35,603 nucleotides of DNA. Origin: Oscillospiraceae bacterium (GTDB taxonomy: Bacteria > Bacillota > Clostridia > Oscillospirales > Oscillospiraceae). How positions within the stretch are numbered: position 1 is the first letter of the stretch; every line of letters begins with the position of its first letter. Of the stretch, positions 1,864-19,455 are shown in pieces. Below the pieces are notes generated by a model. It searched no databases. It saw nothing but the letters and a program-made list of their open reading frames with translations, and was not told where the DNA came from. The stretch lies in contig JAFVMW010000056.1 of assembly GCA_017506735.1 (NCBI GenBank), positions 1 to 35,603 on the forward strand, given 5' to 3'. A program made the position numbers and the translations under genes.

Positions 1864-2925
1864 TCATGGCATCGCGTTTTCAATCAGGCTCTGATACAGT
1901 TCCTCCGTAAGATCACAGCCGTAGAACAGCCTGTAATACGCAGTAACCTCTTCCTGAAGATCGTATTCGGTGTATTCAGGATACAGCAGCTCCCCCAGCC
2001 ACAGCATTCCCAGATACCGCTGCACCGCCGGGGGCGAGGACAGCCAGCCGTAGGGGCCATAGGGTGTTTTGTAATACTGCTCCTGAGAAATGGCAGCAAT
2101 GCTCTGCCACTGAGGCGCCTCAGCGACGGTATCATAGCAGCTGTCCGGGGCGAAGATGATGACATCGGGATTCCAGACCAGAATCTGCTCCAGATCCACC
2201 TCATTGCCTGTGCCGGTGGAAACCACGTCATCCACAACCGCAACATTGCGGCTCATCATGTTCACTGTTTCCGCGTGGAAGGAGCCCTCTGCCAGAACAA
2301 AGGTTCCGGTATCGCCCAGGCAATACAGTAAGGATTTCCGGGCGTTGTCCGCATCCACCCGGGCCATCATTTCCCCGATCATGGAGTAGGTTCTTTCACA
2401 CCAGGCGGCCAGCTCCTCCGCTTTTTCTTCACGGCCCAGCAATTTGCCGAGGGTGCGGTAAGCGTCAGGTGCGGTAGCCACGGTAGCGTCAATGTGAACA
2501 AAGGGAATTCCTGTCTGCTCCGTCAGGGCATCCAGGTCGTCGGCGGTGGAGGCCTTCGGCTCGCCGATGTCAATGACCAGATCCGGTGCCGCTGAGAGCA
2601 GCGCTTCCAGATCCATCTCTCCCTTGCCGCCGTAGAGCTGACCGATTTCCGTTTTTTCCAGAATGTAAGCAGGCAGATACAGCTCCGCGTCCTCTGCATA
2701 GGCGTTGCTGACGCCAACCAGCATATCACCGGCAAGGGGCAGAATATAGACTTGGGAGAGCGGTCCGGTGATGGCGATCCGTTCAATTTTGGCCGGGACT
2801 GGAACGGCGCGGCCAGTGGAATCCACAAAGGCTTCTGTGGGCTGAGGTGCGTCCTCAGAATTTCCTGCGCAGCCGCACAGCAGCAGGGCAAGCATCAGAA
2901 CAATACATAAAAGTTTTCTGTTCAT
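1864..2925 (-). CDS. ABC importer substrate-binding lipoprotein, FecB/BtuF class
   Basis: This is a periplasmic-binding-protein-like lipoprotein (Peripla_BP_2 type) that captures a metal, metal complex or oxyanion outside the membrane for the importer encoded just upstream. A lipoprotein signal peptide ends at Cys19 (LLLCGC followed by AGNSED). The mature part has the two-lobed class III look, with segments such as APDLVIDIGEP and WNPDVIIFAP near the lobe junctions. The start is supported by GGAGG 7-8 bases upstream, and the gene begins 12 bp after the ATPase stop. It is the last gene of the minus-strand operon. Substrate cannot be read from sequence. The molybdoenzyme context makes molybdate or tungstate plausible, as in the Haemophilus MolABC system of the same family, but iron-siderophore or cobalamin remain possible. 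Confidence 0.88.
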   Translation of the reverse strand: MNRKLLCIVLMLALLLCGCAGNSEDAPQPTEAFVDSTGRAVPVPAKIERIAITGPLSQVYILPLAGDMLVGVSNAYAEDAELYLPAYILEKTEIGQLYGGKGEMDLEALLSAAPDLVIDIGEPKASTADDLDALTEQTGIPFVHIDATVATAPDAYRTLGKLLGREEKAEELAAWCERTYSMIGEMMARVDADNARKSLLYCLGDTGTFVLAEGSFHAETVNMMSRNVAVVDDVVSTGTGNEVDLEQILVWNPDVIIFAPDSCYDTVAEAPQWQSIAAISQEQYYKTPYGPYGWLSSPPAVQRYLGMLWLGELLYPEYTEYDLQEEVTAYYRLFYGCDLTEELYQSLIENAMP

Positions 2926-2937
2926 ACTTTCGCCTCC

Positions 2938-3717
2938 TTATGCGATGATATGTGTGGGAATACAAATCCGGGCGTTGTCGTTATACAGGCTGACCACATT
3001 TACATCCACGCCGTAAAGAGCGCGCATGGTATCTTCCGTCAGCACCTGCTCCGGTGTGCCCTCTGTCAACACCCGACCTTTTTGGATCGCCAGAATCCGG
3101 TCAGAATACATATAGCTCTGCTCCGGGTGATGGGTGGTCTGGATGACGGTATAGCCTTCTCTGGCCAGATTCCGGGCCTGCTCCAGCACCAGCAGCTGAT
3201 TGCCGAAGTCCAGATTGGCGGTGGGCTCGTCCAGCATGAGAATGGGCGCGTTCTGCACCAAGGCCCGGGCGATGAGCACCAGTTGCTGTTCGCCGCCGGA
3301 GAGCCGGTGGAAGCACCGGTCAGCCAAATGGGAGATGCCCACTTTATCCATCGCCCAAAGGCAGCTTTCCGCATCCTTCTTTTTCGGGCTGCGGAAGGTG
3401 GAAAGACCGGAGGTTCTGCCCATGAGGACGATGTCAAAAACGCTGTAATTGAAAATGGGGCGGCAGGACTGGGGGATGTAGGCGATATGCTTGGCCGCTT
3501 CCCGGACGGAATAGCTGCGGCTGTCGATGCCGTCCACCAGAACCTGCCCTGTGTAGCCGGAAAGCAGTCCCAGCACACAGCGGAACAGGGTGCTTTTGCC
3601 CACGCCGTTGGGGCCCAGGATGGAGAGAAATTCCCCCTTTTCCACCTGGAAGCTGATGTCATGCAGCACCGGACGGTCGCCGTAGGAAAAGCTCAGATGT
3701 TTGACTTCAATGCTCAT
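2938..3717 (-). CDS. ABC importer ATP-binding protein, FecE/BtuD class
   Basis: This is the cytoplasmic ATPase that powers the FecCD-type importer. Walker A (GPNGVGKST) is at about residues 35-43, the ABC signature (LSGGEQQL) near 138, and Walker B with the catalytic Glu (ILMLDEPTANLD) near 160-170, all intact. The length of 259 residues is normal for the family. The open frame extends 38 codons further upstream, but the ATG at 3717 overlaps the permease stop by 11 bp and is preceded by GGGGGA, so it is the likely start. It is translationally coupled to the permease before it and followed at 12 bp by the binding lipoprotein. Its substrate follows from the transporter as a whole and is not determined. 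Confidence 0.93.
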   Translation of the reverse strand: MSIEVKHLSFSYGDRPVLHDISFQVEKGEFLSILGPNGVGKSTLFRCVLGLLSGYTGQVLVDGIDSRSYSVREAAKHIAYIPQSCRPIFNYSVFDIVLMGRTSGLSTFRSPKKKDAESCLWAMDKVGISHLADRCFHRLSGGEQQLVLIARALVQNAPILMLDEPTANLDFGNQLLVLEQARNLAREGYTVIQTTHHPEQSYMYSDRILAIQKGRVLTEGTPEQVLTEDTMRALYGVDVNVVSLYNDNARICIPTHIIA

Positions 3718-4732
3718 AATGATCCCCCTTTCCCGTAATGAGCCACAGAAAGAAGGGCGCGCCGATGAAGGCAGTGAGAATTCCGATGGGAATTCCGGAG
3801 GTGGTTGCGTTCCGGGAAACATTGTCCACAATCAGCAGGAAGATGCCGCCGCCCAGCATGGAGGCAGGCATGAGGAACCGGTAATCGCTTCCCACCAGCC
3901 GCCGCATCATGTGGGGAATCACCAGTCCCACCCAGCCGATCATGCCGCTGACAGACACGGCAGAGGCAGTAACCAGCGTGGAGCAGATGACGATTCCCAG
4001 CCGCACCCTGGGGGCGTTGACACCCATGGCCCGGGCCTCGTCGTCGCCCATGGTAATCACATTCAGCTGCCAGCGCATCAGAAGCAGCGGAATCAGACCG
4101 ATCAGTACCGGCAAAAGAACAAAGCCAAGATCAGACCATTTGGCACCGCTGAGGCTGCCCATGAGCCAGTAGGTGATCTGGGGCAGCTGATTGTTGGGGT
4201 CTGCCACCAGTTTCAGGAAGGAGGTTCCCGACTGGAACAGGGAAGACACCATGATGCCAGCCAGCACCAGTCCCAGCACCCGGTCTCCCCGGGCGTGGCG
4301 GCTGACGGTGAATACCAAAGCAACCGTGACCAGACTGGCGGCAAAGGCACCGATGGTGATGCCCACACTGGATGCCCCCAGCAGGATGGCCAGTGCCGCG
4401 CCGAAGCCGGCGCCGGCGGAAGCTCCCAGAATGTCGGGAGAGGCCATGGGATTCTGGAACACACCCTGATAGCTTGCGCCTGCGGAAGCAAGGCAGGCTC
4501 CCACCAGCACGCTCATGATTACCCGGGGAAGCCGGATGTTCCAGACCGCGGCTTCCATCTGATCTGTCCAGAATTTCCCGATGGGCAGTCCCAGCTTGCT
4601 GCCTAAGATCCCCAGCAATTCTCCAAACGGCACGGGATATCGCCCCAGCAGGAAGGAGGCAAGGATGCACACAATCAGCGCAACGCCCATGATCAGCACC
4701 GTTCGGCGGTGCTTTTTTTCGATCTCATTCAT
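3707..4732 (-). CDS. FecCD-family ABC importer permease
   Basis: This is the transmembrane subunit of a type II ABC importer (FecCD/BtuC family), 341 residues with about ten hydrophobic helices. Family landmarks seen are RLPRVIMSVLVGACLASAGASYQGVFQNPMASPDILG in pieces near residues 49-85 and GMIGWVGLVIPHMMRRLVG near 250-270, the latter being the coupling-helix region that contacts the ATPase. Its ATG overlaps the stop of the DUF364 gene by four bases (ATGA), and its own stop overlaps the ATPase start, so the three are translationally coupled. A single permease gene suggests a homodimeric channel. Neighbours suggest a metal or oxyanion tied to molybdenum enzymes, which is an inference only. 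Confidence 0.92.
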   Translation of the reverse strand: MNEIEKKHRRTVLIMGVALIVCILASFLLGRYPVPFGELLGILGSKLGLPIGKFWTDQMEAAVWNIRLPRVIMSVLVGACLASAGASYQGVFQNPMASPDILGASAGAGFGAALAILLGASSVGITIGAFAASLVTVALVFTVSRHARGDRVLGLVLAGIMVSSLFQSGTSFLKLVADPNNQLPQITYWLMGSLSGAKWSDLGFVLLPVLIGLIPLLLMRWQLNVITMGDDEARAMGVNAPRVRLGIVICSTLVTASAVSVSGMIGWVGLVIPHMMRRLVGSDYRFLMPASMLGGGIFLLIVDNVSRNATTSGIPIGILTAFIGAPFFLWLITGKGDHYEH

Positions 4733-5472
4733 AGGCGTTCCCTCGTCAGCAGGAAAGGCTTGCCCATGGGATAGGGTGGGCCGGAGATTTCCCGGCGTAT
4801 TTTGTCTTTCATTCCTTCCGTATCCGTAATGACCAGACCGGCGACCCGGTCAATGCCCAGCTCCAGAAGCCCCGGACAAAGGGGTGCGCTGGGGCCTGCC
4901 AGAATGGTATAGGCGTTTTTGCAGAGGTCCAGCAGGTGCGGCAGAGTCTTGTTCACCAGGGTGCTGGCGGTGATAATCACCACATCGCACTGAGGGAGAA
5001 TCCAATCGCAGGCAGAATCCGGGTAATCTCCCGGCCGGGGATTCCGCTCCAGAATCAGCACCTCTTTGGCCTGGTCATAGACAGACCGGGGCATATTCAG
5101 ATGCCCGATGACACCGATTCGCTTACCCCACAAATCCAGACCGTCGGTGCAGTAATTGTCGAAAGGCTCATAAGCGCCCAGAGCCTCCAAACGGGCCGGT
5201 GTGTTGTAAAACGCGTTGATGGCAGCCATGCCGAAGCCTGCTTCTGTCAGATTCCAGCTTTTTGCCGCCGGTGCCAGCTTGCCCAGGGGCATTCCGATAT
5301 GGTCGCCGTTCAGCATCCGGGGAGCCGTATCCACCGGGGTGGTCATGGCCATGCCGAAATGCTCCGCCGTTTCCACAGCCGTCCAGCACTGGCCCAGGAA
5401 GGTGCTGGTTACCACGGTGTCAGCATCAATCCCATCGAGGAGAAGGTCGTAAAGTGTAAAAAAATCCTTCAT
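4729..5472 (-). CDS. DUF4213/DUF364 putative metal-chelation protein
   Basis: The 247-residue protein matches the pattern of the DUF4213 (N-terminal, enolase-N-like) plus DUF364 (C-terminal, Rossmann-like) family, often called putative heavy-metal chelation proteins. Seen features are an N-terminal segment with the VVTSTFLGQCWTAVETAEHFG stretch in parts, the central LDLWGKRIGVIGHL strand-turn, CDWILPQCDVVIITASTLVNKTLPHLL, and a C-terminal YTILAGPSAPLCP motif. No signal peptide or membrane helix is seen, so it should act in the cytoplasm. It sits between xdhC (4 bp gap) and the permease (ATGA overlap). Family members commonly neighbour FecCD-type importers, which fits a role in handling the imported metal. 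No enzymatic activity is established for the family as far as I know. Confidence 0.8.
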   Translation of the reverse strand: MKDFFTLYDLLLDGIDADTVVTSTFLGQCWTAVETAEHFGMAMTTPVDTAPRMLNGDHIGMPLGKLAPAAKSWNLTEAGFGMAAINAFYNTPARLEALGAYEPFDNYCTDGLDLWGKRIGVIGHLNMPRSVYDQAKEVLILERNPRPGDYPDSACDWILPQCDVVIITASTLVNKTLPHLLDLCKNAYTILAGPSAPLCPGLLELGIDRVAGLVITDTEGMKDKIRREISGPPYPMGKPFLLTRERL

Positions 5473-5476
5473 GATA

Positions 5477-6475
5477 TCACAATCCGTTCCTCTCTGCCCG
5501 GTGGAGGATCATCTGGGCGGCGATGGAGATGGCGATCTCCGCCGGAGTCTCGCCCTTGATGGGCAGGCCGATGGGAGTGGTGACAAGATCCAGCTCATCA
5601 TCCGACAGCCCGTATTCTTCCTTTAAGGTTTTGCGGACACCGGCTGCCTTGAAGGGGCTGCCGATGACACCGCAGTAGGTGGGGCGGCAGCGGAGCACCT
5701 GGGCCTGGATCACCGTGTCGTAGGCGTGGCCCCGGGTCATGACGCAGACATAATCCTCATTCCCGATGGTCATGTATTCCCCGATGTTTTGCAGATCGCC
5801 GCAGATCACTTCCTCCGCGCCGGGGAACAATTCCTTCCTTGTAAACTCCTCCCGGTCATCCATGACCACGCACCGGAAGCCTACATGGGAAAGTACCGGC
5901 ACCAGCTCCTGTGCCACATGGCCGCCGCCGAAAATGTAAACCCTGCCGGATACATTGATCTGCTCGGCGAAAATGCTGCCCAGCCGTTCCGGGTGACGGG
6001 ACAGCTTCAATTCCTCAGAAACCGGAATCCCCCAGAAGCCTGAGGCCTCGGAATACAGGCCCATCCGGCCCTTCTCGCCCAGCTCTGTCAGCAGCCACAG
6101 ATTGCTTCCCTTTCGGAACTGTGCTTCCGCCTCCTCACAGAGCGAAATGGTATGGGCATCCCCGGCAGGAAGGTAATGGAAGAACACATCGCAGGCGCCG
6201 CCGCAGATCATGCCCAGGTTCTGCACATCATCCTTGGTCAGCGTGAAGTCGTGGCCCATGGAGGTCTTTTCTTCCAGAACCCTGGCGGCGATTTGCTCGC
6301 TTCGATATTCCACGGCGCCGCCGCCGATGGTGCCGCAGATGCGGCCCTGGCTGCCGATCAGCATCCGGGCACCGGCACCCCGGGGGGTAGCGCCGGAGGA
6401 GGCGATGACGGTAACCAGTACCAGGGCTTCACCCTGCTCCAGTCTGGTTTGAATGGTTTTCAGCATATTACGCAT
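5477..6475 (-). CDS. xdhC: XdhC/CoxI family molybdoenzyme maturation factor
   Basis: XdhC proteins bind molybdenum cofactor, promote its sulfuration and deliver it to molybdenum hydroxylases such as xanthine or aldehyde oxidoreductases. The N-terminal XdhC domain shows VTVIASSGATPRGAGARM and the glycine-rich GTIGGGAVEYRSE motif within the first 60 residues. A C-terminal Rossmann domain begins at VYIFGGGHVAQEL (about residue 198) and continues through MTRGHAYD and GVIGSPFKA. Length 332 is normal. The start has AGGAGG eight bases upstream, and the ATG directly abuts the stop of the phosphatase gene. The obvious client is the Mop-type oxidoreductase at 9.5-12.3 kb, transcribed divergently. Confidence 0.92.
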   Translation of the reverse strand: MRNMLKTIQTRLEQGEALVLVTVIASSGATPRGAGARMLIGSQGRICGTIGGGAVEYRSEQIAARVLEEKTSMGHDFTLTKDDVQNLGMICGGACDVFFHYLPAGDAHTISLCEEAEAQFRKGSNLWLLTELGEKGRMGLYSEASGFWGIPVSEELKLSRHPERLGSIFAEQINVSGRVYIFGGGHVAQELVPVLSHVGFRCVVMDDREEFTRKELFPGAEEVICGDLQNIGEYMTIGNEDYVCVMTRGHAYDTVIQAQVLRCRPTYCGVIGSPFKAAGVRKTLKEEYGLSDDELDLVTTPIGLPIKGETPAEIAISIAAQMILHRAERNGL

Positions 6476-7024
6476 TTATAGTTCCTCCTGTAATTCAAAA
6501 TGTCCGTCCTTCCGGGTGAGGGGAATGACCTGGGCATAGCCTGGCTTTCTCCACACACCGCTGATATCCTGCAGGAATTGGGCGATGATGCCTCCGTGGG
6601 CCACCACCGCGAAATCACCGGGACTTTTCTCAGCGGCTTCCTCCATGGCCCGTTTGAACCGGGCAAGACCTGCCGCGTGGTCCTCGGCCCCAGGCAGTGG
6701 GAGGGTAAGATCCCTGGCCCGGGCGGCGTAAAGCTCCGGGTAACGGCTGCGGATTTCATCAAAGGTCAGCCCGTCCCATTCTCCTGCGTACATCTCCCGG
6801 AGATCATCGATGACGGTGACGCTCAGGCCGATGGCCTGGGCTGTCTGCACTGCCCGGGTCAGGGGGCTGGAAAATACCGCTGTCACGGGCGGCAGGCCTT
6901 TCGCCATTTCCGCTGCCTGCTGCCGTCCCTGCTCGCCCAGGGGAATGTCTGTGGTGCCGATGCACATTCCCTTTCCCCCGGGGAAATCCGGCAGGCCGTG
7001 ACGGATGAGATAGACCTTTTTCAT
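6476..7024 (-). CDS. Histidine phosphatase (phosphoglycerate-mutase-like) family protein
   Basis: This is a 182-residue branch-1 histidine phosphatase. The catalytic RHG motif is at residues 8-10 (YLIRHGLPDF), followed by the usual TDIPLGEQGRQQA segment, SSPLTRAVQTA, and a second conserved His in VVAHGGIIAQFL. All expected catalytic residues are visible, so it is probably active on a small phosphate ester. Related enzymes include the alpha-ribazole phosphatase CobC, but no cobalamin genes lie nearby. It overlaps the upstream nucleotidyltransferase gene by four bases and abuts xdhC, so it belongs to the molybdenum operon. A role in removing a phosphate from a cofactor precursor or nucleotide is possible but not shown. 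Confidence 0.85.
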   Translation of the reverse strand: MKKVYLIRHGLPDFPGGKGMCIGTTDIPLGEQGRQQAAEMAKGLPPVTAVFSSPLTRAVQTAQAIGLSVTVIDDLREMYAGEWDGLTFDEIRSRYPELYAARARDLTLPLPGAEDHAAGLARFKRAMEEAAEKSPGDFAVVAHGGIIAQFLQDISGVWRKPGYAQVIPLTRKDGHFELQEEL

Positions 7025-7947
7025 TCAAACAGACCTCCAAAATACGTATCGTACAAATTGTTTGCCTGCTCCTTCAGTGCCTGTTCGTATGCGGTGTACC
7101 GGGCCAGAAGCTGCCGCCCCCGGTCTGTCAGCACGCTGGTGCTGCCGCCGGCACCGCCCTGGCTGCGTTCGATGAGGGTATAGTTCAGCTGGCTTTCCAG
7201 AGTGCGGATGATGTTCCAGCAGCTGGAATAACTCAGCTGCATCCGCTGACCGGCGGCCCGGACGGATTTGGTTTCGTCAACGAGCATCAGCAGCATGGCG
7301 ATTTTGCTGTCGAAGAAGGGCTTTTCCTTGTTCAGGGAAACACTGACCACAGGCCGGACAAGCTGGGAATTGTGATAGTCCACCAATGCGGAGAAATCCT
7401 CCGGCGTGTCCGCGTCATGGATGGTTCCGGGGTCATCCACATCGACGCGCAGCAGCGGCACCGAGCACCGGTCCATGGCTCCCTTCAGCCCCATTTCGCC
7501 GCAGTCCGACAGGATTTCCGGGATCAGCGAATTCGCGATCATGATGGGATGTCCCTGCTTCCCGTCGCACATGGGGCAGGCGAGGGGGGCACCGGAATCT
7601 AAGATGGCCTTCACGGTCTTTGCGGTAAACAGGGGCACATCCACCGGGGTAAACAGAAGCTTATCGCACTTATCCTGCAAATACCGAAGTCCGATCTTCA
7701 CAGAGTCAAACATCTGGGTAGTCTCATACTGCTCATTTCTCAGAAAAATAATGCCGTTGCCGGATAAGTGCCGCTCCAGAATGGTGGCGTTGTAGCCTGT
7801 GACCATGACGATCTTGCTCACGCCGGACTGGCTCAGGGTGGCAATGATCCGCTGGGCCACGGAGATGGAGCCAATGTTCATCATGGGCTTGAACTGCCCC
7901 ATTCTGCTGGACATTCCGGCGGCAACGATCAGCGCGCCGATCTGCAT
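7021..7947 (-). CDS. MocA-like nucleotidyltransferase fused to ModE-type HTH
   Basis: The N-terminal domain (about residues 1-190) is a MobA/MocA-type NTP transferase with an intact LIVAAGMSSRMGQFKP signature and an FTPVDVP metal-site segment. Such enzymes add CMP or GMP to molybdopterin, and MocA (CMP) serves xanthine/aldehyde oxidoreductases. The C-terminal part (about 210-300) matches the ModE/LysR-like winged helix: SVRAAGQRMQLSYSSCWNII, then a glycine-rich wing GGAGGSTSVLTDRGRQLL. The fusion suggests an enzyme that also regulates transcription in response to cofactor or metal status. It is the first gene of the minus operon, with an AAGGAGG site before the ATG. A paralogue with a degenerate active site lies at 18550. 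DNA targets are unknown; candidate palindromes are in its own leader. Confidence 0.87.
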   Translation of the reverse strand: MQIGALIVAAGMSSRMGQFKPMMNIGSISVAQRIIATLSQSGVSKIVMVTGYNATILERHLSGNGIIFLRNEQYETTQMFDSVKIGLRYLQDKCDKLLFTPVDVPLFTAKTVKAILDSGAPLACPMCDGKQGHPIMIANSLIPEILSDCGEMGLKGAMDRCSVPLLRVDVDDPGTIHDADTPEDFSALVDYHNSQLVRPVVSVSLNKEKPFFDSKIAMLLMLVDETKSVRAAGQRMQLSYSSCWNIIRTLESQLNYTLIERSQGGAGGSTSVLTDRGRQLLARYTAYEQALKEQANNLYDTYFGGLFE

Positions 7948-9248: not shown

Positions 9249-9506
9249 ATGGAAGAAAAGATTTTCGAGATTTCCGCAAAGGAAGTAACCATTGAAGTTG
9301 TGGACGAGGCCACGGGAAAAACTTACCGCCGTACCCTCCCCATTGACTACTACGAGACCGCAAACGGTCTGGTGCTTCGGGGAGAAAATCTGGACGGCAG
9401 TATTTCCCAGCTGGTATTCTATACGCCCCGGGGCATGCAGCGAATGCAGGACCTGACGGGCAAGGGCCCTGACGAGGACCCCTGCGGCGGCCACAGCCAC
9501 AAGTAA
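9249..9506 (+). CDS. Small conserved-looking protein of unknown function
   Basis: I do not recognise this 85-residue protein. It is acidic and mostly predicted beta strand, with alternating patterns such as VTIEVVDEATGKTYRRTL and GLVLRGENLDGSISQLVFY. There is no signal peptide or membrane helix. The tail DEDPCGGHSHK holds one Cys and two His and could bind a metal. The start is supported by GAAGGTG eight to ten bases upstream and by the promoter just before it. It ends 44 bp before the aldehyde oxidoreductase gene with no terminator between, so the two are probably cotranscribed. A regulatory or cofactor-handling role for the oxidoreductase is a guess from position. Confidence 0.72.
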   Translation: MEEKIFEISAKEVTIEVVDEATGKTYRRTLPIDYYETANGLVLRGENLDGSISQLVFYTPRGMQRMQDLTGKGPDEDPCGGHSHK

Positions 9507-9550: not shown

Positions 9551-12304
9551 ATGATTAAAAAGACACTTATCATCAACGGCGTATCCCGTACCATGCTGGT
9601 GAACGAGAATGAAACCCTCGCCACCTTCCTGCGTGAGCGTCTGCTGCTGACCGGCTGTAAGATCGGCTGCGGCGAGGGCCACTGCGGTGCATGTAATGTC
9701 ATTGTGGACGGCAAGGTCACCCGCTCCTGTGTTGTGAAGATGGGTAAGGTCAAGGATGGCGCTGAGATCACCACCATCGAAGGCATCGGTACCATTTCCG
9801 ACATGCATCCCCTGCAGGTGGCCTGGATGGCCCATGGCTGCGCCCAGTGCGGCTTCTGCTCCCCCGGCTTCATCATGTCCGCCAAGGTTCTGCTGGACAA
9901 CAACAACGCCCCCACCCGTGAAGAGGTTCGTGACTGGTTCCAGAAGAACCGGAACCTGTGCCGCTGCACCGGCTATAAGCCCCTGGTGGACGCTGTCATG
10001 GACGCTGCCCGTGTCTATCGCGGAGAGATCACCAAGGAGGATCTGATTTTCAAGCCCACCGGTGACTCCATCATCGGCACCAAGTATGTCCGTCCCTCTG
10101 CTGCCCAGAAGGTCACCGGTACCTGGGACTTCGGCGCTGATGACGCTCTGAAGATGCCCGAGGGCACCCTGCGTCTGGCTCTGGTGCAGGCCAAGGTCAG
10201 CCACGCTCTGATCAAGGGTGTTGACACCTCCGAGGCTCTGAAGATGCCCGGCGTTGAGCGGATTATCACCGCTGAGGACATCGTTGCCGCCGGCGGCAAG
10301 AACCGGATCAACGGCCTGGTCATGCTGCCCCTGAACAACAAGTGTGACGGCTGGGACCGTCCCGTCCTGTGTGACGAGAAGATCTTCCAGTTCGGCGATG
10401 CCATTGCCATCGTTGCCGCTGACACCGAGGCCCACGCCCGTGCCGCCGCTGACGCTGTCAAGGTGGACATCGAGCTGCTGCCTGCCTACATGAACGCCAT
10501 GGATGCCATTGCCGAGGACGCAATCGAGATCCATCCCGGTGTTCCCAATGCCTACTACGAGACCAACTGTATCAAGGGTCCCGACTTCGACTTCGATTCC
10601 GCTCCCAATGTGGTTGAGATCGAGTCCTACTGCTCCCGTCAGCCCCACCTGCATCTGGAGCCCGACTGCGGCTACGCCTACATCGACGAGGACGGCATGG
10701 TCACTGTCCACTCCAAGTCCATCGGTATCCATCTGCATATGCCCATGATCGCTGACGGCATCGGCGTTCCCATGGACAAGCTGCGCATCGTCCAGAACCA
10801 CGCCGGCGGTACCTTCGGCTACAAGTTCTCCCCCACCAACGAGGCCATTCTGGGCGCTGCCGCCAAGATCATCGGCAAGCCCGTGTCCCTGGTATTCAAC
10901 CAGTTCCAGAACATCACCTACACCGGCAAGCGCTCCCCCGGCTTCATGAACATCAAGCTGGCCGCTGACGAGAACGGCAAGATTCTGGGCCTGTGGGGCA
11001 ACAACTACATCGACCATGGTCCTTACTCCGAGTTCGGCGACCTGCTGACCCACCGTCTGAGCCAGTTCGTGGGCGCAGGCTACGACATTCCCACCATCCG
11101 CAACAAGTCCCAGACCGTATTTACCAACCATGCATGGGGCTCTGCCTTCCGTGCTTACGGTTCTCCCCAGTCCTTCATGGGCTCCGAAATCGCCATCGAC
11201 GTGCTGGCAGCCAAGATGGGCATGGATCCCTTCGACATCCGCGAGCTGAACTGCTACAAGGAGTCCGCCAAGTCCACCATCCCCACCGGCTACGCTCCCG
11301 ACGTCTACTGCCTGGAAGAGATGTACAAGATGGCCCGTCCTCTGTACGAGGCAGGCAAGAAGAGAGTTGCAGAGAAGAACGCAGCTTCCGATGGCCGCTA
11401 CAAGTACGGCATCGGCGTCGCCTCCGGCGTTTACGGCTGTGGTCTGGACGGCGTTGACTCCTCCCAGGCTTACGCTGAGCTGAATCCCGACGGCACCGTC
11501 ACCATGTACGCTTCCTGGGAAGATCACGGTCAGGGCGCTGATATGGGCGTGCTCCAGTCCGCTCACGAGACCCTGCGTCAGATCGGCATCAAGCCCGAGC
11601 AGATCAAGCTGGTCATGAACGACACCAAGATCACCCCCAACTCCGGCCCTGCCGGCGGTTCCCGTTCCCAGGTCATGTCCGGCAACGCCTGCCGTCTGGC
11701 CGCTGAGAACCTGATCGCCGCCATGAAGCGTGAGGACGGCACCCTGCGCACCTACGAAGAGATGAAGGCAGAGGGCATCGAGACCAAGGTTCTGGGCAAC
11801 TGGGTCACTGACTACTGCGCCGAGCATCCCGTGGATCAGGCTACCTCTCAGGGCGATCCCTTCGCAACCTATATGTACACCCTGTTCCTGCCCGAGGTCT
11901 GTGTTGACACCCAGACCGGTAAGGTCAAGGTAGAGAAGTTCACCTGTGTTGCTGACGTGGGCACCATTATGAATAAGCTGCTGGTAGACGGCAACTTCTA
12001 CGGCGGTCTGGCACAGGGCATCGGCCTGGCACTGACTGAGGACTTCGAGGACCTGACCAAGCACACCAGCCTGAAGAACTGCGGTATTCCTTATCCCAAG
12101 GATATCCCCGATGACATCGAGCTGCACTACCTCCAGACCTACCGTCCCAACGGTCCTTACGGCGCAGCCGGCTGCGGCGAGGCTCCTCTGGATGCTCCTC
12201 ACCCCGCAATCCTGAACGCCATCTACAACGCCACCGGCGCACGGATCACCCGTGTTCCCGCTCTGCCCGAAGTCGTTCTGGCTGCCCTGGCTGAGCTGAA
12301 GTAA
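9551..12304 (+). CDS. mop: Mop-type molybdopterin-dependent aldehyde oxidoreductase
   Basis: This is a single-chain molybdenum hydroxylase of the xanthine oxidase family that likely oxidises aldehydes to acids. It is 917 residues, close to the 907-residue Desulfovibrio gigas Mop, and lacks the FAD domain of xanthine dehydrogenases. The first [2Fe-2S] ferredoxin domain carries C40, C45, C48 and C60; the second carries C100, C103, C137 and C139, the same numbers as I recall for D. gigas Mop. The Moco part shows GGTFGYK, AFRAYGSPQ and GCGEAPL, whose E877 aligns with the catalytic base. The cofactor is probably molybdopterin cytosine dinucleotide. A GGGAGG site precedes the ATG. Codon use is strongly biased toward a small set (CGT, GCT, AAC, GAG), unlike the flanking genes, which suggests very high expression. 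Substrate is unknown. Confidence 0.93.
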   Translation: MIKKTLIINGVSRTMLVNENETLATFLRERLLLTGCKIGCGEGHCGACNVIVDGKVTRSCVVKMGKVKDGAEITTIEGIGTISDMHPLQVAWMAHGCAQCGFCSPGFIMSAKVLLDNNNAPTREEVRDWFQKNRNLCRCTGYKPLVDAVMDAARVYRGEITKEDLIFKPTGDSIIGTKYVRPSAAQKVTGTWDFGADDALKMPEGTLRLALVQAKVSHALIKGVDTSEALKMPGVERIITAEDIVAAGGKNRINGLVMLPLNNKCDGWDRPVLCDEKIFQFGDAIAIVAADTEAHARAAADAVKVDIELLPAYMNAMDAIAEDAIEIHPGVPNAYYETNCIKGPDFDFDSAPNVVEIESYCSRQPHLHLEPDCGYAYIDEDGMVTVHSKSIGIHLHMPMIADGIGVPMDKLRIVQNHAGGTFGYKFSPTNEAILGAAAKIIGKPVSLVFNQFQNITYTGKRSPGFMNIKLAADENGKILGLWGNNYIDHGPYSEFGDLLTHRLSQFVGAGYDIPTIRNKSQTVFTNHAWGSAFRAYGSPQSFMGSEIAIDVLAAKMGMDPFDIRELNCYKESAKSTIPTGYAPDVYCLEEMYKMARPLYEAGKKRVAEKNAASDGRYKYGIGVASGVYGCGLDGVDSSQAYAELNPDGTVTMYASWEDHGQGADMGVLQSAHETLRQIGIKPEQIKLVMNDTKITPNSGPAGGSRSQVMSGNACRLAAENLIAAMKREDGTLRTYEEMKAEGIETKVLGNWVTDYCAEHPVDQATSQGDPFATYMYTLFLPEVCVDTQTGKVKVEKFTCVADVGTIMNKLLVDGNFYGGLAQGIGLALTEDFEDLTKHTSLKNCGIPYPKDIPDDIELHYLQTYRPNGPYGAAGCGEAPLDAPHPAILNAIYNATGARITRVPALPEVVLAALAELK

Positions 12305-14650: not shown

Positions 14651-14660
14651 GGAGTGCGCT

Positions 14661-14882
14661 ATGGCAACCGAAAAAAACTACTACACCATTGACCCGGAAG
14701 GAAAGCTGACCTGCATGAAGTGCCGTGTCAAGCTCGTCAAGGGCAAGGCAAAGTTCATGTACCTGGACAATGGCTTCCCGGTGGAGCTGCCGGTGTGTCC
14801 CAAGTGCGGCTTCGTCTACGTTCCGGAGGAACTGGCCCTGGGTAAGGTGCTTTCCGTGGAGAAAGCCCTGGAGGACAAGTGA
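14661..14882 (+). CDS. Small two-CxxC redox or zinc-ribbon protein (DVU_1557-like)
   Basis: The 73-residue protein carries two Cys pairs, CMKC at 18-21 and CPKC at about 46-49, in a rubredoxin/zinc-ribbon spacing. It could bind iron or zinc and act as a small electron carrier or structural partner. It starts 10 bp after the Fe-S protein with AAGGAG upstream, and its stop overlaps the start of the methyltransferase (TGATG). The constant position in this gene set, as I remember it from Desulfovibrio, supports a shared function. No activity is known. Confidence 0.75.
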   Translation: MATEKNYYTIDPEGKLTCMKCRVKLVKGKAKFMYLDNGFPVELPVCPKCGFVYVPEELALGKVLSVEKALEDK

Positions 14883-15397: not shown

Positions 15398-15401
15398 AGC
15401 A

Positions 15402-15827
15402 ATGGATCTTGACGAGAGAATTATGGAACTGAGCCGCTATGGCTATGCCTGCGGCCAGATCTTGGCCATTCTGCTGCTGGACACCATCGGGGAGGAAAAC
15501 CCGGCACTGGTCCGGTGTATGCAGGGGCTGAACGGCGGCATTGGTTCTTCCGGTGATGTCTGCGGCTGCATGGCGGCTGGCTGTTGTCTGATCTCCTATT
15601 TCACCGGCAAGCCCGGGGATACGGAGTTCGACAGCCCCCATCACAAGGGGGCCATGGCCGAGTTTACTGGGTGGTTCCAGAATGAAATGGAGCTGGAGTA
15701 TATGAGCATCGACTGCTCCGGAATTGTGGGAACCAATCCTGCGAAAAAGGTGCAGTATTGCCCCAATATCATCGCTTCCACCTATGAAAAATGTATGGAA
15801 ATCTTGGAAAGCAGAGGACTTTTGTAA
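15402..15827 (+). CDS. C-GCAxxG-C-C family protein (DVU_1555-like)
   Basis: The protein is 141 residues with a cysteine-rich core: CGQ at 17-19, C39, then GDVCGCMAAGCC at about 52-62, and further cysteines near 106, 122 and 134. This matches the C-GCAxxG-C-C family, here with Met in place of the usual Ala (GCMAAG). Family members are small redox or metal-binding proteins of unknown function, sometimes thought to be metallocofactor or electron carriers. The ATG at 15402 follows AAAGGA and the methyltransferase stop by four bases. The next gene begins immediately after its TAA. Confidence 0.82.
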   Translation: MDLDERIMELSRYGYACGQILAILLLDTIGEENPALVRCMQGLNGGIGSSGDVCGCMAAGCCLISYFTGKPGDTEFDSPHHKGAMAEFTGWFQNEMELEYMSIDCSGIVGTNPAKKVQYCPNIIASTYEKCMEILESRGLL

Positions 15828-17144
15828 ATGATTATCGGAAAAACCATGTCTGTCTGCCCGGTCTGCCTTTCAAAAATTCCTGCCCGAAAGGTGGTTGGGG
15901 CGGATGGCAATCTCTATATGGAAAAGGAATGCTGGGAGCATGGCCCATTCCGCACCCTGATCTGGGAGGGGGATCTGGAAAGCTACCGCGCCTGGGCCGC
16001 TGGGGATGCCGGCGGCACCGTGATTCCTGTCCGGGCCCAGCCGGTGGAGAAGGGCTGCCCCTATGACTGCGGCCTTTGTCAGAACCACGAACGGGATGGC
16101 TGCTGCGTGCTGCTGGAGCTGACCAACCGGTGCAATCTGAGATGCCCCGTGTGCTTCGCCAGCGCCGGGGAGCAGAAGCCCCGGGATCTGTCTCTGGAGG
16201 AAATCGGCAAGCAGTATGATCTGCTGATGGAGCGCGGCGGCCCCTTCAATATCCAGCTCTCCGGCGGCGAACCCACCATGCGGAATGATCTGGATCAAAT
16301 CATTGCCCTGGGCCGGGAAAAGGGCTTTACCTTCTTCCAGCTGAACACCAATGGCCTTCGCATTGCCCAGGAGGAGGGGTATGCGGAGCATCTGGTGAAA
16401 GCAGGCGTCAGCGTGGCGTTTTTGCAGTTTGACGGTCTGGAGGATGACATTTATCTTGCCCTTCGGGGAGCGCCTCTGACCGAAATAAAAATCAAAGCCA
16501 TCGACAACTGCAAGGCCGCCGGACTGCCTGTGGTTCTGGTTCCCACTGTGGCGCCCGGGGTCAATGACCATGCTCTGGGGGACATTCTGCGCTTCGCGCT
16601 GAGCCGGGCACCCCATATCCGGGGCGTGCATATCCAGCCCATCTCCTACTTTGGCCGGTGCGGTCTGGAGGCACCGGAGGTCCGTCTGACAATTCCTGCG
16701 GTTCTGCGGCGGATTGAAGCGCAGACCGAGGGACTGATGAAGATCACCGACTTCGGCGGCGGCGGTGCGGAGAGTCCCTACTGCTCCTTCCATGCAAGCT
16801 ACATGAGAAAGCCGGACGGCACCGTCAAAGCGCTGCCCCGGCGGCGGAGCCAGTGCTGCTGCGTCAAGTCCAGTGATGCCCGGGATTTTGTATCCCAGCA
16901 GTGGAGCGGCAAGGCGGCCTGCTGTGACGGGGATGCTGCAACCTCCTCCCTGGACGAGTTCCTGCAAAAAACCGTAGAGAATACCTTTACCGTGTCCGGA
17001 ATGGTGTTCCAGGATGCCTATAATCTGGATCTTGACCGGCTGCGCCGGTGCTATATCTGCGAGGTGGACGCAGGACACGGCATGGTGCCCTTCTGCGCCT
17101 ACAATCTGACGGACATCCACGGACGGGCTCTGTATCGAAAATGA
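15828..17144 (+). CDS. trsS: Radical SAM protein of the TrsS type
   Basis: This is a 438-residue radical SAM enzyme. The SAM cluster cysteines are C102, C106 and C109 (TNRCNLRCPVCFAS). The N-terminus has a zinc-ribbon-like segment (CPVC at 10-13, C35) and more cysteines at 77, 81 and 84 (CPYDCGLC), as in tetraether-synthase-like radical SAM proteins. The C-terminal part holds QCCCVKSS, AACCDG and RCYICEV, enough for auxiliary clusters. I recall that members of this family can be selenoproteins; here only Cys codons are present and no in-frame TGA occurs. The reaction is unknown. The gene abuts the C-GCAxxG-C-C gene and overlaps the CoA ligase start (ATGA). Family naming is from memory. Confidence 0.83.
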   Translation: MIIGKTMSVCPVCLSKIPARKVVGADGNLYMEKECWEHGPFRTLIWEGDLESYRAWAAGDAGGTVIPVRAQPVEKGCPYDCGLCQNHERDGCCVLLELTNRCNLRCPVCFASAGEQKPRDLSLEEIGKQYDLLMERGGPFNIQLSGGEPTMRNDLDQIIALGREKGFTFFQLNTNGLRIAQEEGYAEHLVKAGVSVAFLQFDGLEDDIYLALRGAPLTEIKIKAIDNCKAAGLPVVLVPTVAPGVNDHALGDILRFALSRAPHIRGVHIQPISYFGRCGLEAPEVRLTIPAVLRRIEAQTEGLMKITDFGGGGAESPYCSFHASYMRKPDGTVKALPRRRSQCCCVKSSDARDFVSQQWSGKAACCDGDAATSSLDEFLQKTVENTFTVSGMVFQDAYNLDLDRLRRCYICEVDAGHGMVPFCAYNLTDIHGRALYRK

Positions 17145-18349
17145 AACGAACGAATTTGGAAACCTGGATCGAAGCCATCGAAGCCCTCCCGAAGCTGACC
17201 CGGGAGGGCTTGGAAGAACTGCAATTAACGCGGCTTAACGAAACGCTGGCAAGACTGAAGGCAAGGGGCGGCTTTTACAGGGACTATCCGGAACGCATAG
17301 AATCCCTTTCTGATTTGCGGAAGCTGCCCTTTACCACGGCGCAAATGCTTTCGGAGCATCCGGGGAGATTTCTGCTTACCTCCCAGTCAGAGGTAAGCCG
17401 GGTGATTTCCGGAGCCACCTCCGGCACCACCGGGCCTGCAAAACGGGTGTTTTATACAGCCAATGATACGGCGCATACCGTGGGCTTTTTCGCCGCGGGC
17501 ATTTCGGAAATGCTCTGGCCAGGAGAAAAGTGTCTCATTGCGTTCCCCTTTACCGGCCCCTTTGGCCTTGGCGATCTGATTGCCCAGGCGGTGGAGCGAT
17601 TGGGCGGCATACCCATCAAGGCAGGCTTTGGTCAGACCTGGGAAGAACTGACTGCCCTGGTGAGAGAAACCCGGCCAGAAGCCTTCATCGGCTTCCCGGT
17701 GACGCTGCTGGGCCTTGTCCGGATGTATGGGGCTGGGTTTCCGGTCAGAAGAGCTCTGGTCTCCGGGGATGCCTGCCCGGTGGGCGTTATGGAAGAACTG
17801 GAAAAGGCATTGGGGAGCAGGCTCTATCCCCACTACGGCAGCCGGGAATGCGGCCTTGGAGGCGCGGTGACCTGCCCGGCCTTTGCCGGGATGCACATCC
17901 GGGAGAATCACATCATTCCGGAAATCATCGACGAACAGGGGAATGTACTGCCGGACGGCGAATACGGCGAGCTGGTCATCACCACCATCGGCGCGGAGGC
18001 CATGCCCCTGATCCGCTACCGTACCGGAGATTTTACCCGGCTTCTGCCGGATTGCCCCTGCGGCGGTGTGACAAAACGGCTGGACACCGTTTGCCGCCGG
18101 GAGGGGAGCGTTTCCATTGAGAAATTGGACAGCGTGCTGTTCCGAATTCCGGATCTGGTGGATTATCGGGCATCCTTTGACGGGGGCCTGCGCATCGAAG
18201 CGTACACGCTTTGCCCAGGGCTGGAAACGCAGATTTCCGCCGCGGCAAAGCGGCTGTATCCTGCTTTGAACATCGAGGTTCATACCGCTCTGTGCCAGCC
18301 TTTCCACCGCCCCATGTACCTGGGAAAGCGGTATGCTGTACTGGAATAG
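17141..18349 (+). CDS. AMP-dependent CoA ligase-like enzyme (DVU_1553-like)
   Basis: The 402-residue protein belongs to the adenylate-forming superfamily, closest in length and layout to phenylacetate-CoA ligase. The ATP loop SGATSGTTGPAKR is at about residues 90-102, and the later GEYGELVITTIGAEAMPLIRYRTGD block carries the adenylate-binding YRTGD. It should activate a carboxylate as an acyl-AMP or acyl-CoA. The longer open frame starts at 17048, but the ATG at 17141 overlaps the radical SAM stop by four bases and keeps the typical N-terminus (LPFTTAQML). An enzyme turning the acid product of the aldehyde oxidoreductase into a thioester is one possibility; activation of a substrate for the modification module is another. 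Confidence 0.83.
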   Translation: MKRTNLETWIEAIEALPKLTREGLEELQLTRLNETLARLKARGGFYRDYPERIESLSDLRKLPFTTAQMLSEHPGRFLLTSQSEVSRVISGATSGTTGPAKRVFYTANDTAHTVGFFAAGISEMLWPGEKCLIAFPFTGPFGLGDLIAQAVERLGGIPIKAGFGQTWEELTALVRETRPEAFIGFPVTLLGLVRMYGAGFPVRRALVSGDACPVGVMEELEKALGSRLYPHYGSRECGLGGAVTCPAFAGMHIRENHIIPEIIDEQGNVLPDGEYGELVITTIGAEAMPLIRYRTGDFTRLLPDCPCGGVTKRLDTVCRREGSVSIEKLDSVLFRIPDLVDYRASFDGGLRIEAYTLCPGLETQISAAAKRLYPALNIEVHTALCQPFHRPMYLGKRYAVLE

Positions 18350-18385
18350 ACTATGTGTAATTTGGGCCTTTTTCGTGTGGTTTCG

Positions 18386-18413
18386 CACGGAAGTGTTTCG
18401 GCAAACTTGCGTG
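18386..18413. promoter_or_regulatory. Candidate operator dyad over the -35 element
   Basis: A 28-base imperfect palindrome, CACGGAAGT matching ACTTGCGTG in inverted orientation (8 of 9), overlaps the predicted -35 hexamer of the next promoter. A regulator bound here would repress. The downstream gene encodes a protein with a ModE-type HTH, so autoregulation is possible. Confidence 0.4.
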
Positions 18414-18434
18414 GAAACGATTTTGGACTATAAT
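18407..18434 (+). promoter_or_regulatory. Promoter for the second nucleotidyltransferase-HTH gene
   Basis: TTGCGT (18407-18412) and TATAAT (18429-18434) are 16 bases apart. The predicted start near 18441 leaves a leader of about 110 nucleotides before the ATG at 18550. Confidence 0.6.
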
Positions 18435-18504
18435 AATAGGCGTCTACATGAGGAAGACAAAATTAACCCAGGCCTTCCCCACAGATATCATCGTAAGCGA
18501 ACGG

Positions 18505-18536
18505 GAGGGATTCAGGCGAATCCCTCTTTTTGTTTT
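18505..18536 (+). terminator. Terminator-like hairpin in a 5' leader (candidate attenuator)
   Basis: GAGGGATTC (18505-18513) and GAATCCCTC (18518-18526) form a perfect 9-bp stem with an AGGC loop, followed by TTTTTGTTTT. It sits between a promoter and the ribosome binding site GGAGGTG (18537-18543) of the next gene, the layout of a transcription attenuator. About 65 nucleotides of leader precede it. I do not recognise a known riboswitch class. Confidence 0.6.
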
Positions 18537-18549
18537 GGAGGTGACCGGA

Positions 18550-19455
18550 ATGATGTATATCGGCGCAGTTATTATCGCAGCAGGCTGCGGAAGCGCACCC
18601 ATGCTTCCAGCAGGAGGAATCTCCGTTGCCCAGAGAATGGTGGCGGCTTTCCAGAAAGCCGGTGTGGATCTCATTGCACTGGTCACCGGCCCGGAGGATA
18701 AAAAACTGGAAAAGCAGCTTGCCCAGCCGGGGCTGGTTTTCCTCCACAACGAAACACCGGAAGACCGGCTTGCTTCCAGAAGGCTGGGCCTTGAATATCT
18801 CCGCGGAAAATGCCAGCGGATCTTTCTGACCCCGGCGGACCGGCCTCTGATCGCACCGGAAACCGTGTCGGAAATGCTGGAAGCGGCCGGCGATGTGATC
18901 ATCCCCACCTGCGAGGGTGCGCCAGGACAGCCCATCCTGCTTTCCGGTGCCGGAATCGATTGTTTTGAAGCCCAGAGCGAGGATCGGCTCTGTGTACCGG
19001 TTCTTCACAGAAACGGGTTGGTGGTGGACTATATCAGCGTGGAGGATCCGGGAATCCTGTTATCTGCCGAAGCAGGCTGCAGCCAGACAGAAGCCCTTTC
19101 CGAGCATGACCGGAAGCTGACCCGTCCGGTGCTGGAATTTGCCGTTAGCAGAGGAAGAAATCTGCTGGACCGGAAGCTGATGGTGCTGCTGTACCTGATC
19201 CGGGACACCCAGTCCGTCCGGGATGCCTGCAGCCGGATGCAGATTTCCTATTCCACCGCCTGGAATATGCTCAACGCCGCGGAAAACGAGCTGGGCTATC
19301 CGCTGCTTCTCCGCAACAAAGGCGGCCCCTCCGGCACAGGAAGCCTCTTGACCCGGAAGGGACAGGCACTGCTCAATGCCTATGAGCAGTTTGAAAGCGC
19401 CGCAAAAATGAATATGGAAAAGCTGTACGATACCTACCTCCGGGATCTGCTGTAA
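18550..19455 (+). CDS. Degenerate nucleotidyltransferase fused to ModE-type HTH (DVU_1551-like)
   Basis: This is a paralogue of the protein at 7021-7947 with the same two-domain layout. The N-terminal domain keeps the fold (VIIAAGCGS, then ISVAQRMVAAFQKAG, FLTPADRPLI) but the catalytic signature is lost: where the paralogue has SSRMGQFKP, this one has GSAPMLPAG, without the Arg and Lys that contact the nucleotide. The C-terminal HTH is well kept (SVRDACSRMQISYSTAWNML, wing GGPSGTGSLLTRKGQALL). It is therefore probably a sensor-regulator rather than an enzyme. The open frame begins at 18448, but that ATG is only about seven bases after the predicted transcription start; ATG 18550 or 18553 with GGAGGTG upstream is far better. 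Confidence 0.83.
   Translation: MMYIGAVIIAAGCGSAPMLPAGGISVAQRMVAAFQKAGVDLIALVTGPEDKKLEKQLAQPGLVFLHNETPEDRLASRRLGLEYLRGKCQRIFLTPADRPLIAPETVSEMLEAAGDVIIPTCEGAPGQPILLSGAGIDCFEAQSEDRLCVPVLHRNGLVVDYISVEDPGILLSAEAGCSQTEALSEHDRKLTRPVLEFAVSRGRNLLDRKLMVLLYLIRDTQSVRDACSRMQISYSTAWNMLNAAENELGYPLLLRNKGGPSGTGSLLTRKGQALLNAYEQFESAAKMNMEKLYDTYLRDLL

Follow-up and report, generated by a model that had tools for sequence, protein, structure and literature searches.

Why are genes for a radical S-adenosylmethionine (SAM) enzyme, a methyltransferase and an adenosine monophosphate (AMP)-forming ligase found beside the gene for a molybdenum-dependent aldehyde oxidoreductase? The question is raised by a locus of an Oscillospiraceae bacterium on contig JAFVMW010000056.1 of GenBank assembly GCA_017506735.1 (contig 69 of a 2.3 Mb draft genome), the whole 35,603 nucleotides (nt) of which we call the window. 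The plus strand of the locus begins with genes for a TylF-like methyltransferase, an 85-residue protein, the oxidoreductase (Mop), an iron–sulfur protein of the diclust family and the small CxxC protein DVU_1557. It continues with a methyltransferase of the DVU_1556 family, a C-GCAxxG-C-C protein, the radical SAM enzyme TrsS, the AMP ligase and a degenerate fusion of MocA with a helix-turn-helix domain (MocA-HTH). The minus strand carries another MocA-HTH gene and genes for a CobC-like phosphatase, XdhC, a DUF4213/DUF364 protein and a FecCD-type importer. A first-pass annotation, made from the letters of the DNA, had named all but one of these genes, taken them for one conserved unit and proposed that the unit builds a new group or cofactor for the enzyme, or converts its product. 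All of the genes it named are present as intact open reading frames (ORFs) with an NCBIfam or Pfam match, save the 85-residue protein, which has no family; the TylF/FkbM-like methyltransferase gene (8117-9064, plus strand) had been overlooked. Our analysis bears out the conserved unit, which is tied to the Mop type of NCBIfam family NF045668 by specific co-occurrence in two genome samples, divides the locus into two parts, and leads us to favour, tentatively, a maturation or cofactor role for its helper genes.

The module genes are catalogued and not new. NCBIfam already names their families (DVU_1551, DVU_1553, DVU_1555-1557, NF045663 and TrsS), by names that carry no function, and the window is one instance of this set. 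It holds the same genes, the difference being that its MocA protein is fused to a ModE-type HTH domain and not to an HD domain. The proposed match to DVU_1551-1559 of Desulfovibrio vulgaris holds at the level of names and literature, through the family names DVU_1551, 1553, 1555, 1556 and 1557 and through the available excerpt of PMC10920352, in which DVU_1559 is an aldehyde oxidoreductase. A second paper gives DVU_1559 the same identity, and DVU1558 is mentioned once in PMC3114432. The module neighbourhood may already be described by Haft and Tolstoy (2025), cited in a review (PMC13188914) whose accessible part lists TrsS as a table row; a literature search on six further spellings of the module gene tags found no paper. 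What the present work adds is the two-way co-occurrence, the division into enzyme and helper units, a molybdoenzyme-linked sister clade of TrsS and the invariant tail of the CxxC protein. Its value lies in a sharpened question more than in gene discovery.

Co-occurrence of TrsS with one type of molybdenum hydroxylase

The window Mop (9551..12304, plus strand) scores 1513.6 bits against NF045668, the Mop-type molybdenum aldehyde oxidoreductase family (cut-off 1100). Its Pfam domains (Fer2, Fer2_2, Ald_Xan_dh_C, MoCoBD_1 and MoCoBD_2) describe a single chain of two [2Fe-2S] domains and the molybdopterin domains, without a flavin adenine dinucleotide (FAD) domain. TrsS (NF045646; 15828..17144, plus strand; 575.5 bits, cut-off 490) is a radical SAM enzyme and a relative of the tetraether synthase Tes. 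Tabulating the two across genomes, as had been proposed, gave Mop in every TrsS genome of two samples. Among 391 genomes of the class, the same 15, from eight families, exceed the cut-offs for TrsS and for NF045668. The scores fall into separate groups for both proteins (lowest accepted TrsS 492 bits, next group 365; lowest accepted Mop 1146 bits, next full-length match 520). A second sample of 199 genomes, from the phylum of genome G003, contains TrsS in 12, all 12 with Mop, that of G483 being cut by a contig end. Read the other way, 15 of the 199 have Mop (13 over the cut-off, two cut) and 12 of these 15 have TrsS over its cut-off; the TrsS of G479, cut by a contig end at 469.5 bits, is counted apart, and rows under the cut-off do not count as TrsS in either tally. 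A module occurring widely without Mop was thus absent from both samples, and the single exception, taken up below, lies outside the tallies.

The tie is to the type of enzyme. A molybdenum hydroxylase domain of any kind is found in 71 of 371 class genomes, and TrsS accompanies 15 of the 16 with an NF045668-type Mop (15 over the cut-off plus a fragment in G118) and none of the other 55 (Fisher 1.7e-14, kinship uncorrected). A general partnership of TrsS with molybdenum hydroxylases was rejected on this count. We also checked 17 genomes for Mop, taken from 53 loci and picked mainly because Mop was missing or cut in the stretch at hand: 16 matched, 11 over the cut-off. G008 had none, and all that G004 has of this Mop type is a fragment scoring 204.8 bits. 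Genome-wide searches covered five chosen genomes for Mop, G764 included, and 11 for the ligase.

Within NF045668, genomes that hold two Mops distinguish two types, with 43-45% versus 58-59% identity to the window Mop. Types A and B occur together in five class genomes (G128, G174, G313, G345 and G363), and in four of these module genes stand beside both; the type B Mop of G345 has only diclust and the CxxC protein beside it. The best structural matches of the window Mop in the PDB are 1dgj (1168 bits) and 1sij (1150 bits), which we take to be the aldehyde oxidoreductases (AORs) of Desulfovibrio desulfuricans and, together with 1vlb, Desulfovibrio gigas. Of the two types, A is the nearer to the D. 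gigas AOR, which scores 1274 bits against a type A query and 813 against a type B query. Selenium-dependent molybdenum hydroxylase systems also combine a molybdenum hydroxylase with XdhC/MocA-type helpers, but the window Mop lies far under their cut-offs (TIGR03311, selenium-dependent xanthine dehydrogenase, 423 bits against 830; TIGR03313, 217 against 1102). The Desulfovibrio AORs belong to the same family over the whole length, with the same domains and likewise without an FAD domain; they differ in having been studied as lone enzymes, the helpers, diclust and the CxxC protein going unmentioned in the available excerpt of PMC10223205.

A comparison of 27 Mop sequences with 12 fused relatives under the NF045668 cut-off, of which one (L176) had its neighbourhood checked, gave Mop-specific residues (K389, K791, K837, W129, H884 and others); we set these aside as a lead only, the three lysines being present in 1dgj as well. 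A distant Mop-like gene (L175:442-7609, 800 bits to NF045668) stands beside cysteine desulfurase, phosphatase, methyltransferase and ligase genes, with no TrsS.

An enzyme unit and a separable, shareable helper unit

The module genes of the window are closely packed. Diclust and the CxxC protein gene are 10 nt apart, the latter overlaps the methyltransferase gene by 4 nt, a 4-nt gap precedes the C-GCAxxG-C-C gene (taken to start at 15402), TrsS follows the latter directly at 15828, and TrsS and the ligase overlap by 4 nt provided that the ligase starts at 17141. The second MocA-HTH ORF follows 98 nt downstream of the ligase, or 200 nt if its start is 18550. Of the last six genes, which had been said to overlap or abut, the second MocA-HTH thus stands outside the block. 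Six window proteins (Mop, diclust, DVU_1557, DVU_1555, TrsS and the DVU_1553 ligase) exceed their NCBIfam cut-offs; the methyltransferase (102 bits, cut-off 155), XdhC (286, cut-off 350) and the two MocA-HTH proteins (182 and 82, cut-off 315) fall short. Most related loci repeat the genes from Mop through the ligase, and the arrangement therefore goes beyond chance.

We counted neighbours, with profiles, around 55 Mop loci: 70 Mop ORFs reached at least 1300 bits on a profile of our own, and the 55 with at least 8.3 kb downstream were kept and 15 left out. Mop rows under 1300 bits (14 of them at 300-1300 bits), mostly cut by contig ends or more distant, and stretches L184-L195 stand outside the count; clustering at 85% leaves 23 nonredundant loci. 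TrsS was the route to 30 of the 55, and the remaining 25 surround matches to TrsS or Mop. This biases the TrsS count upward; the genome tallies above (391, 199 and 371) are free of this bias. All 55 loci have both diclust and the CxxC protein within 10 kb of Mop (23/23 nonredundant each); TrsS is found there in 53/55 (21/23), the methyltransferase and the ligase in 52/55 each (20/23 each) and the C-GCAxxG-C-C protein in 50/55 (19/23). MocA follows with 41/55 (16/23), XdhC with 29/55 (15/23) and the phosphatase with 29/55 (11/23); MoeA (11), cysteine desulfurase (4) and ABC ATPases (4) also occur near Mop in the 23 nonredundant loci. Selenocysteine as the cause of an apparent loss of CxxC or C-GCAxxG-C-C genes was discarded, the stretches inspected holding plain ORFs.

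Four Mops (L112, L124, L134 and L135) have only diclust and the CxxC protein beside them, with the helpers elsewhere in each genome, and XdhC and MocA are likewise absent from their sides. Two genomes (G107 and G345) have two Mops and one ligase over the cut-off each, and in three (G294, G345 and G363) a Mop-ligase operon lacks TrsS, which is encoded elsewhere in the genome. The locus therefore consists of two parts, an enzyme unit of Mop, diclust and the CxxC protein and a separable, shareable helper unit, and a single helper set can be all that a genome with two Mops contains. Located apart from Mop or shared by two Mops, the helpers show the same behaviour as XdhC and MocA, whose genes often come next to them downstream.

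In the enzyme unit, diclust (NF045663; 12392..14650, plus strand; 794 bits, cut-off 530) combines GltD-like 4Fe-4S, dicluster and CCG domains (Pfam) and is presumed to be the electron outlet of Mop. The DVU_1557/DUF7479 protein (14661..14882, plus strand; 94.6 bits, cut-off 60) has 73 residues, a CxxC...CPxC pattern and the C-terminus LEDK, and it accompanies Mop and diclust. It also occurs with TrsS in two stretches that have no Mop, L106 (64 bits, in a tandem TrsS cassette) and L187 (73 bits); both genomes encode Mop elsewhere. Its end reads E-[D/G/E]-K in 86/86 sequences scoring at least 80 bits, a count that omits one weaker row (L106), and in 11 further sequences, namely 10/10 found later and that same L106 row (EGK). 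Among 31 sequences at under 72% identity the terminal lysine is kept in all 31, the other invariant positions being Glu-3, Glu-7, a tyrosine and the cysteines; the remaining module proteins have more variable C-termini. Conservation of a free C-terminus to the same degree as the metal ligands suggests that the tail serves for docking or for attachment. The protein may be a target of the shared helpers, or it may simply be a rubredoxin-like electron carrier. Its best PDB matches are LIM zinc ribbons, with MasE (9o8u) at E 0.0064. LysW-type amino-group carrier proteins end in EDWGE; kinship with LysW was rejected, the window protein ending in LEDK and no LysW being among the best 60 of its 75 PDB matches.

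In the helper unit, TrsS has Cys 10, 13, 35, 77, 81, 84, 92, 102, 106, 109, 319, 408 and 423 in 38/38 sequences, and the radical SAM CxxxCxxC and auxiliary-cluster cysteines are likewise present in all 38. The window protein is a cysteine form with no in-frame TGA, the selenocysteine of some members being absent. It resembles the Tes structure 7tol (272.6 bits) over residues 5-309 and 387-427, in its Cys-rich N-terminus and in the auxiliary-cluster motif, and differs from Tes in its neighbours and in its score: an assignment to Tes itself (NF045702) was dropped at 326 bits, under the cut-off of 450. The ligase (DVU_1553 family, NF045666, AMP-forming and PaaK-like; 17141..18349, plus strand; 322 bits, cut-off 300; 113 bits to 4r1l) keeps Ser94-Gly95 (SGTTG), Tyr293, Gly296-Asp297 (YRTGD) and Lys396 in at least 96% of 81 sequences; phenylacetate-CoA ligase PaaK itself (TIGR02155) was rejected at 118.6 bits, the cut-off being 646. 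The TrsM-type class I SAM methyltransferase (NF045667; 14879..15397, plus strand), below its cut-off as noted, is kept as a DVU_1556 relative through position and synteny, and D29, G31, G33, G35, C82, D111 and Y164 are conserved in at least 96% of 78 sequences. The C-GCAxxG-C-C redox protein (DVU_1555 family; 15402..15827, plus strand) scores 140 bits against a cut-off of 103. Of the 75 cases with 1.5 kb or more of sequence on either side of TrsS, 68 have the ligase on the same strand no more than 700 nt away, and 56 have the methyltransferase there.

Tandem TrsS-TrsS-ligase cassettes, with no Mop in the stretch, were seen in L106:6885-10859, L119:2646-6601 and L189.

A maturation role weighed against other readings

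Relatives of TrsS stand beside other enzymes as well. A tree of 57 rows, which does not include Tes, splits with support of 100/99 into one side with TrsS, its tandem variant, a group linked to the dimethyl sulfoxide reductase (DMSOR) family and two haloarchaeal proteins, and another side with relatives beside Lgt-like or fatty-acid genes and a mycobacterial plasmid protein. The DMSOR-linked sister group comprises four loci (L172, L174, L177 and L184) in 4 of 398 genomes. A DMSOR-family enzyme of 726-727 residues adjoins the sister radical SAM gene in all four, and the three of these loci that are in the tree all fall on the TrsS side. Cys319, Cys408 and Cys423 of TrsS are found in 3/3 of the DMSOR-linked members and in 38/38 TrsS, whereas the lipid-linked relatives mostly lack all three (four of six have Val in place of Cys319). 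The L174 operon adds a second DMSOR-family enzyme, a ferredoxin, an NrfD-like protein, MoeA-type genes, a protein like the C-terminal half of diclust (131 bits) and proteins resembling MobA, MobB, MoaC and MogA, the latter read by eye, as profiles matched only MoeA and MOSC. No ligase or methyltransferase match lies beside the sister radical SAM gene in L174, L177 or L184. Two further operons (L039:8194-16624 and L044:2195-10395) are headed by methyltransferase, MocA, TrsS and ligase genes and continue with a HAD phosphatase, a ferredoxin, a tungsten-type AOR (AFOR domains in L044) and a short-chain dehydrogenase; their TrsS proteins fall inside the Mop-linked clade, and Mop, diclust and the CxxC protein are encoded elsewhere in their genomes.

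Shared helpers, two Mop types and a molybdoenzyme-linked sister clade argue for a maturation or cofactor role for the Mop-type enzyme over a product pathway, and we give this reading a probability of roughly 0.45. We infer both this role and every chemical step in it. Mop probably oxidises an aldehyde and passes the electrons to diclust, judging from the domains and their constant proximity. The helper unit would consist of MocA, the phosphatase and XdhC (with MoeA in relatives) together with the methyltransferase, the C-GCAxxG-C-C protein, TrsS and the AMP ligase, and would make or activate something that a Mop-type molybdoenzyme needs. TrsS and the methyltransferase would build a small group, which the ligase would activate as an acyl-adenylate and whose final place would be the molybdenum-pterin site or a dedicated partner, for instance the CxxC protein. 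The conserved ligase motif residues, Lys396 included, and the kept cluster cysteines of TrsS suggest that these two enzymes could work with the methyltransferase and redox proteins to assemble a small acid and activate it. Of what the first-pass annotation proposed, the cofactor role is the part we favour; a stable new group on Mop is weakened, since the available excerpt of PMC10223205 describes an ordinary pterin cytosine dinucleotide and no extra group in the D. gigas AOR. The same excerpt presents that enzyme as an exception without a sulfido ligand, activated in another way than desulfo-xanthine oxidase, and a component may thus have gone missing during purification.

A bolder version, which we find doubtful when its parts are taken jointly, is that TrsS and its sister clade supply a labile group to more than one molybdopterin superfamily, the enzymes served being Mop, the DMSOR-family enzyme and perhaps the tungsten AOR. 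The group would be lost or left behind when the D. gigas AOR is purified. In the systems with TrsS, the invariant terminal lysine of DVU_1557 may be where the AMP ligase attaches it, in the manner of lipoylation. Lipoyl and biotinyl ligation and the LysW-type carriers offer a parallel in their acyl-adenylate chemistry and in a small protein with a strictly conserved C-terminus; lipoyl/biotinyl ligases belong to a fold family different from that of the DVU_1553-type ligase.

Several observations weigh against a maturation role. For a stable group the strongest is the plain cofactor of the D. gigas AOR, provided that its host carries the module. Co-inheritance in an operon could by itself produce the same co-occurrence for a pathway, AMP ligases of the DVU_1553 kind usually make coenzyme A (CoA) thioesters, which suits a pathway, and the nearest characterised relative of TrsS makes lipids. 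The DMSOR link amounts to four loci and the tungsten-AOR link to two relatives inside the Mop-linked clade; two of the three shared cysteines are also present in Tes in the alignment with 7tol, and the shared cysteines are therefore no mark of a molybdoenzyme role. Some genomes depart from the pattern: a truncated Mop without TrsS is found in G480, G490 has no relative of TrsS beyond the DMSOR-linked one, and G118 has Mop with the ligase module and no TrsS over the cut-off, its Mop being cut by a contig end (793 bits) and accompanied by diclust, the CxxC protein, the methyltransferase, the C-GCAxxG-C-C protein and the ligase. Outside both tallies, G764 (L189) carries the tandem TrsS-TrsS-ligase and no NF045668 Mop. 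L126 and L136, both among the 15 loci left out of the neighbour count, lack diclust near Mop in the available stretch. Many genomes of the profile samples are incomplete.

A metabolic pathway, in which a particular aldehyde is oxidised by Mop, the ligase forms the acyl-CoA of the resulting acid and the other helpers act on the substrate or a precursor, agrees with the acyl-CoA synthetase motifs of the ligase and with the operon structure, and the ligase operons of L039 and L044 contain a tungsten-type AOR and a short-chain dehydrogenase that could plausibly act on one and the same substrate. We regard it as somewhat unlikely. Within 10 kb of Mop, none of the 55 loci has a short-chain dehydrogenase or a tungsten AOR, and the 23 nonredundant ones likewise have no short-chain dehydrogenase, a result that covers the profiled families, few of them catabolic, with other neighbours read by eye. 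The earlier suggestion that the module converts the product of Mop is further weakened by helpers that accompany two Mop types, can be shared and may lie apart from Mop, and by a sister clade of TrsS beside a different molybdoenzyme family and without a ligase or methyltransferase match in the three stretches named above.

The helpers might instead make a small diffusible cofactor, like pyrroloquinoline quinone (PQQ) or mycofactocin, that takes the electrons of Mop by way of diclust and the CxxC protein. Radical SAM enzymes, methyltransferases and ligases are typical of small-molecule synthesis, the helpers act in trans, the genes fixed near Mop are the presumed electron-transfer genes, and a pyridine nucleotide-disulfide oxidoreductase adjoins the tandem TrsS and ligase in L106. 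The D. gigas AOR, however, reduces flavodoxin and cytochrome c3 in vitro with no special carrier (PMC10223205, available excerpt), and we consider such a carrier unlikely. Least probable by far is lipid or acyl chemistry, with TrsS joining or altering acyl chains as Tes does, the ligase providing an acyl-adenylate and Mop handling a fatty aldehyde. Tes is the nearest solved relative of TrsS and has two C-terminal cysteines in common with it, and other relatives lie beside Lgt-like or fatty-acid-synthesis-like genes (read by eye); yet these lipid-linked relatives form the separate, well supported branch that mostly lacks Cys319, Cys408 and Cys423, no recurring lipid gene was noticed by eye in the Mop loci, and TrsS co-occurs with one type of molybdoenzyme.

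The maturation role would have consequences for a well-studied enzyme. For decades the D. gigas AOR has served as a model of molybdenum hydroxylases; it differs from xanthine oxidase in how it is activated and in lacking the sulfido ligand (PMC10223205, available excerpt). If Mop-type enzymes do depend on a dedicated radical SAM enzyme, methyltransferase and ligase, part of how they are assembled is not yet understood, and their heterologous expression may fail when the helper set is absent.

Flanking genes and related loci

The first MocA-HTH protein (7021..7947, minus strand) fuses a MocA-type nucleoside triphosphate (NTP) transferase to a ModE/LysR-type HTH (Pfam NTP_transf_3 and HTH_1) and matches NF045665 over its N-terminus (182 bits), TIGR03310 (108) and TIGR00637 (61). 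It falls short of the full-length DVU_1551 family (NF045665, cut-off 315), in which an HD part occupies the C-terminus that the HTH replaces here; a MocA copy in L107 reaches 451 bits. The second MocA-HTH (18550..19455, plus strand, start uncertain, with the ORF open from 18448) scores 82 bits to NF045665 and 53 to TIGR00637 and lacks the catalytic motif kept in the first copy (AAGMSSRMGQFK versus AAGCGSAPMLPAG); it is probably a regulator. The CobC-like histidine phosphatase (6476..7024, minus strand; PF00300, 127 bits) is fused to HD or MocA-HD in relatives (L029:1182-2327 and L127:6688-8523), the L127 protein joining NTP transferase, HD and histidine phosphatase and with them the window's MocA and CobC-like genes in one chain. 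The XdhC-type maturation factor (5477..6475, minus strand; domains XdhC_CoxI and XdhC_C) has NF045664 as its best NCBIfam match, at the 286 bits given above.

Between the divergent MocA-HTH gene and the gene for the 85-residue protein sits the TylF-like methyltransferase gene (PF05711, 46 bits; PF13578, 34 bits), which lies within 10 kb of Mop in 13/55 loci (1/23 nonredundant). The 85-residue protein (9249..9506, plus strand) is conserved near Mop (32/55 loci, 7/23 nonredundant), with conserved positions, C79 among them, across 40 sequences. The DUF4213/DUF364 protein (4729-5472; Pfam DUF364 and DUF4213) and the importer, made up of a FecCD-type permease (3707-4732; FecCD), an ATPase (about 2938-3717; ABC_tran) and a binding protein (1864-2925; Peripla_BP_2), all on the minus strand, are present as annotated earlier. 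We rejected them as module parts and regard them as lineage-specific neighbours: the permease occurs in 7/110 stretches and DUF364 in 3/110, the window included. The closest relatives of the window TrsS come from Oscillospiraceae and other Clostridia, many of them from animal guts.

Ten plasmid records hold TrsS relatives, at 29.5-34.5% identity, and a plasmid search for Mop gave no match at E 1e-150. Three haloarchaeal or mycobacterial plasmid stretches (L139, L140 and L141) show a Tes/TrsS-like radical SAM gene with a methyltransferase gene directly after it, and no molybdenum enzyme is listed in the annotation of these three. Two tandem Tes-class radical SAM genes lie in L179:7007-9816, in an apparent fatty-acid or polyene cluster (roles read by eye). 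A type B Mop operon has a cupin like pyrimidine/purine nucleoside phosphorylase (PF06865) between ligase and MocA (L105:4500-4832), and similar-looking ORFs occur in L110, L117 and L121.

A search for structured RNAs at Rfam gathering scores and for tRNAs found none in the window. Beyond the locus, positions 19785-29500 hold a CRISPR system: Cas3 and Cse1 genes are present, and its array has at least 24 repeats, spaced mostly at 61 nt.

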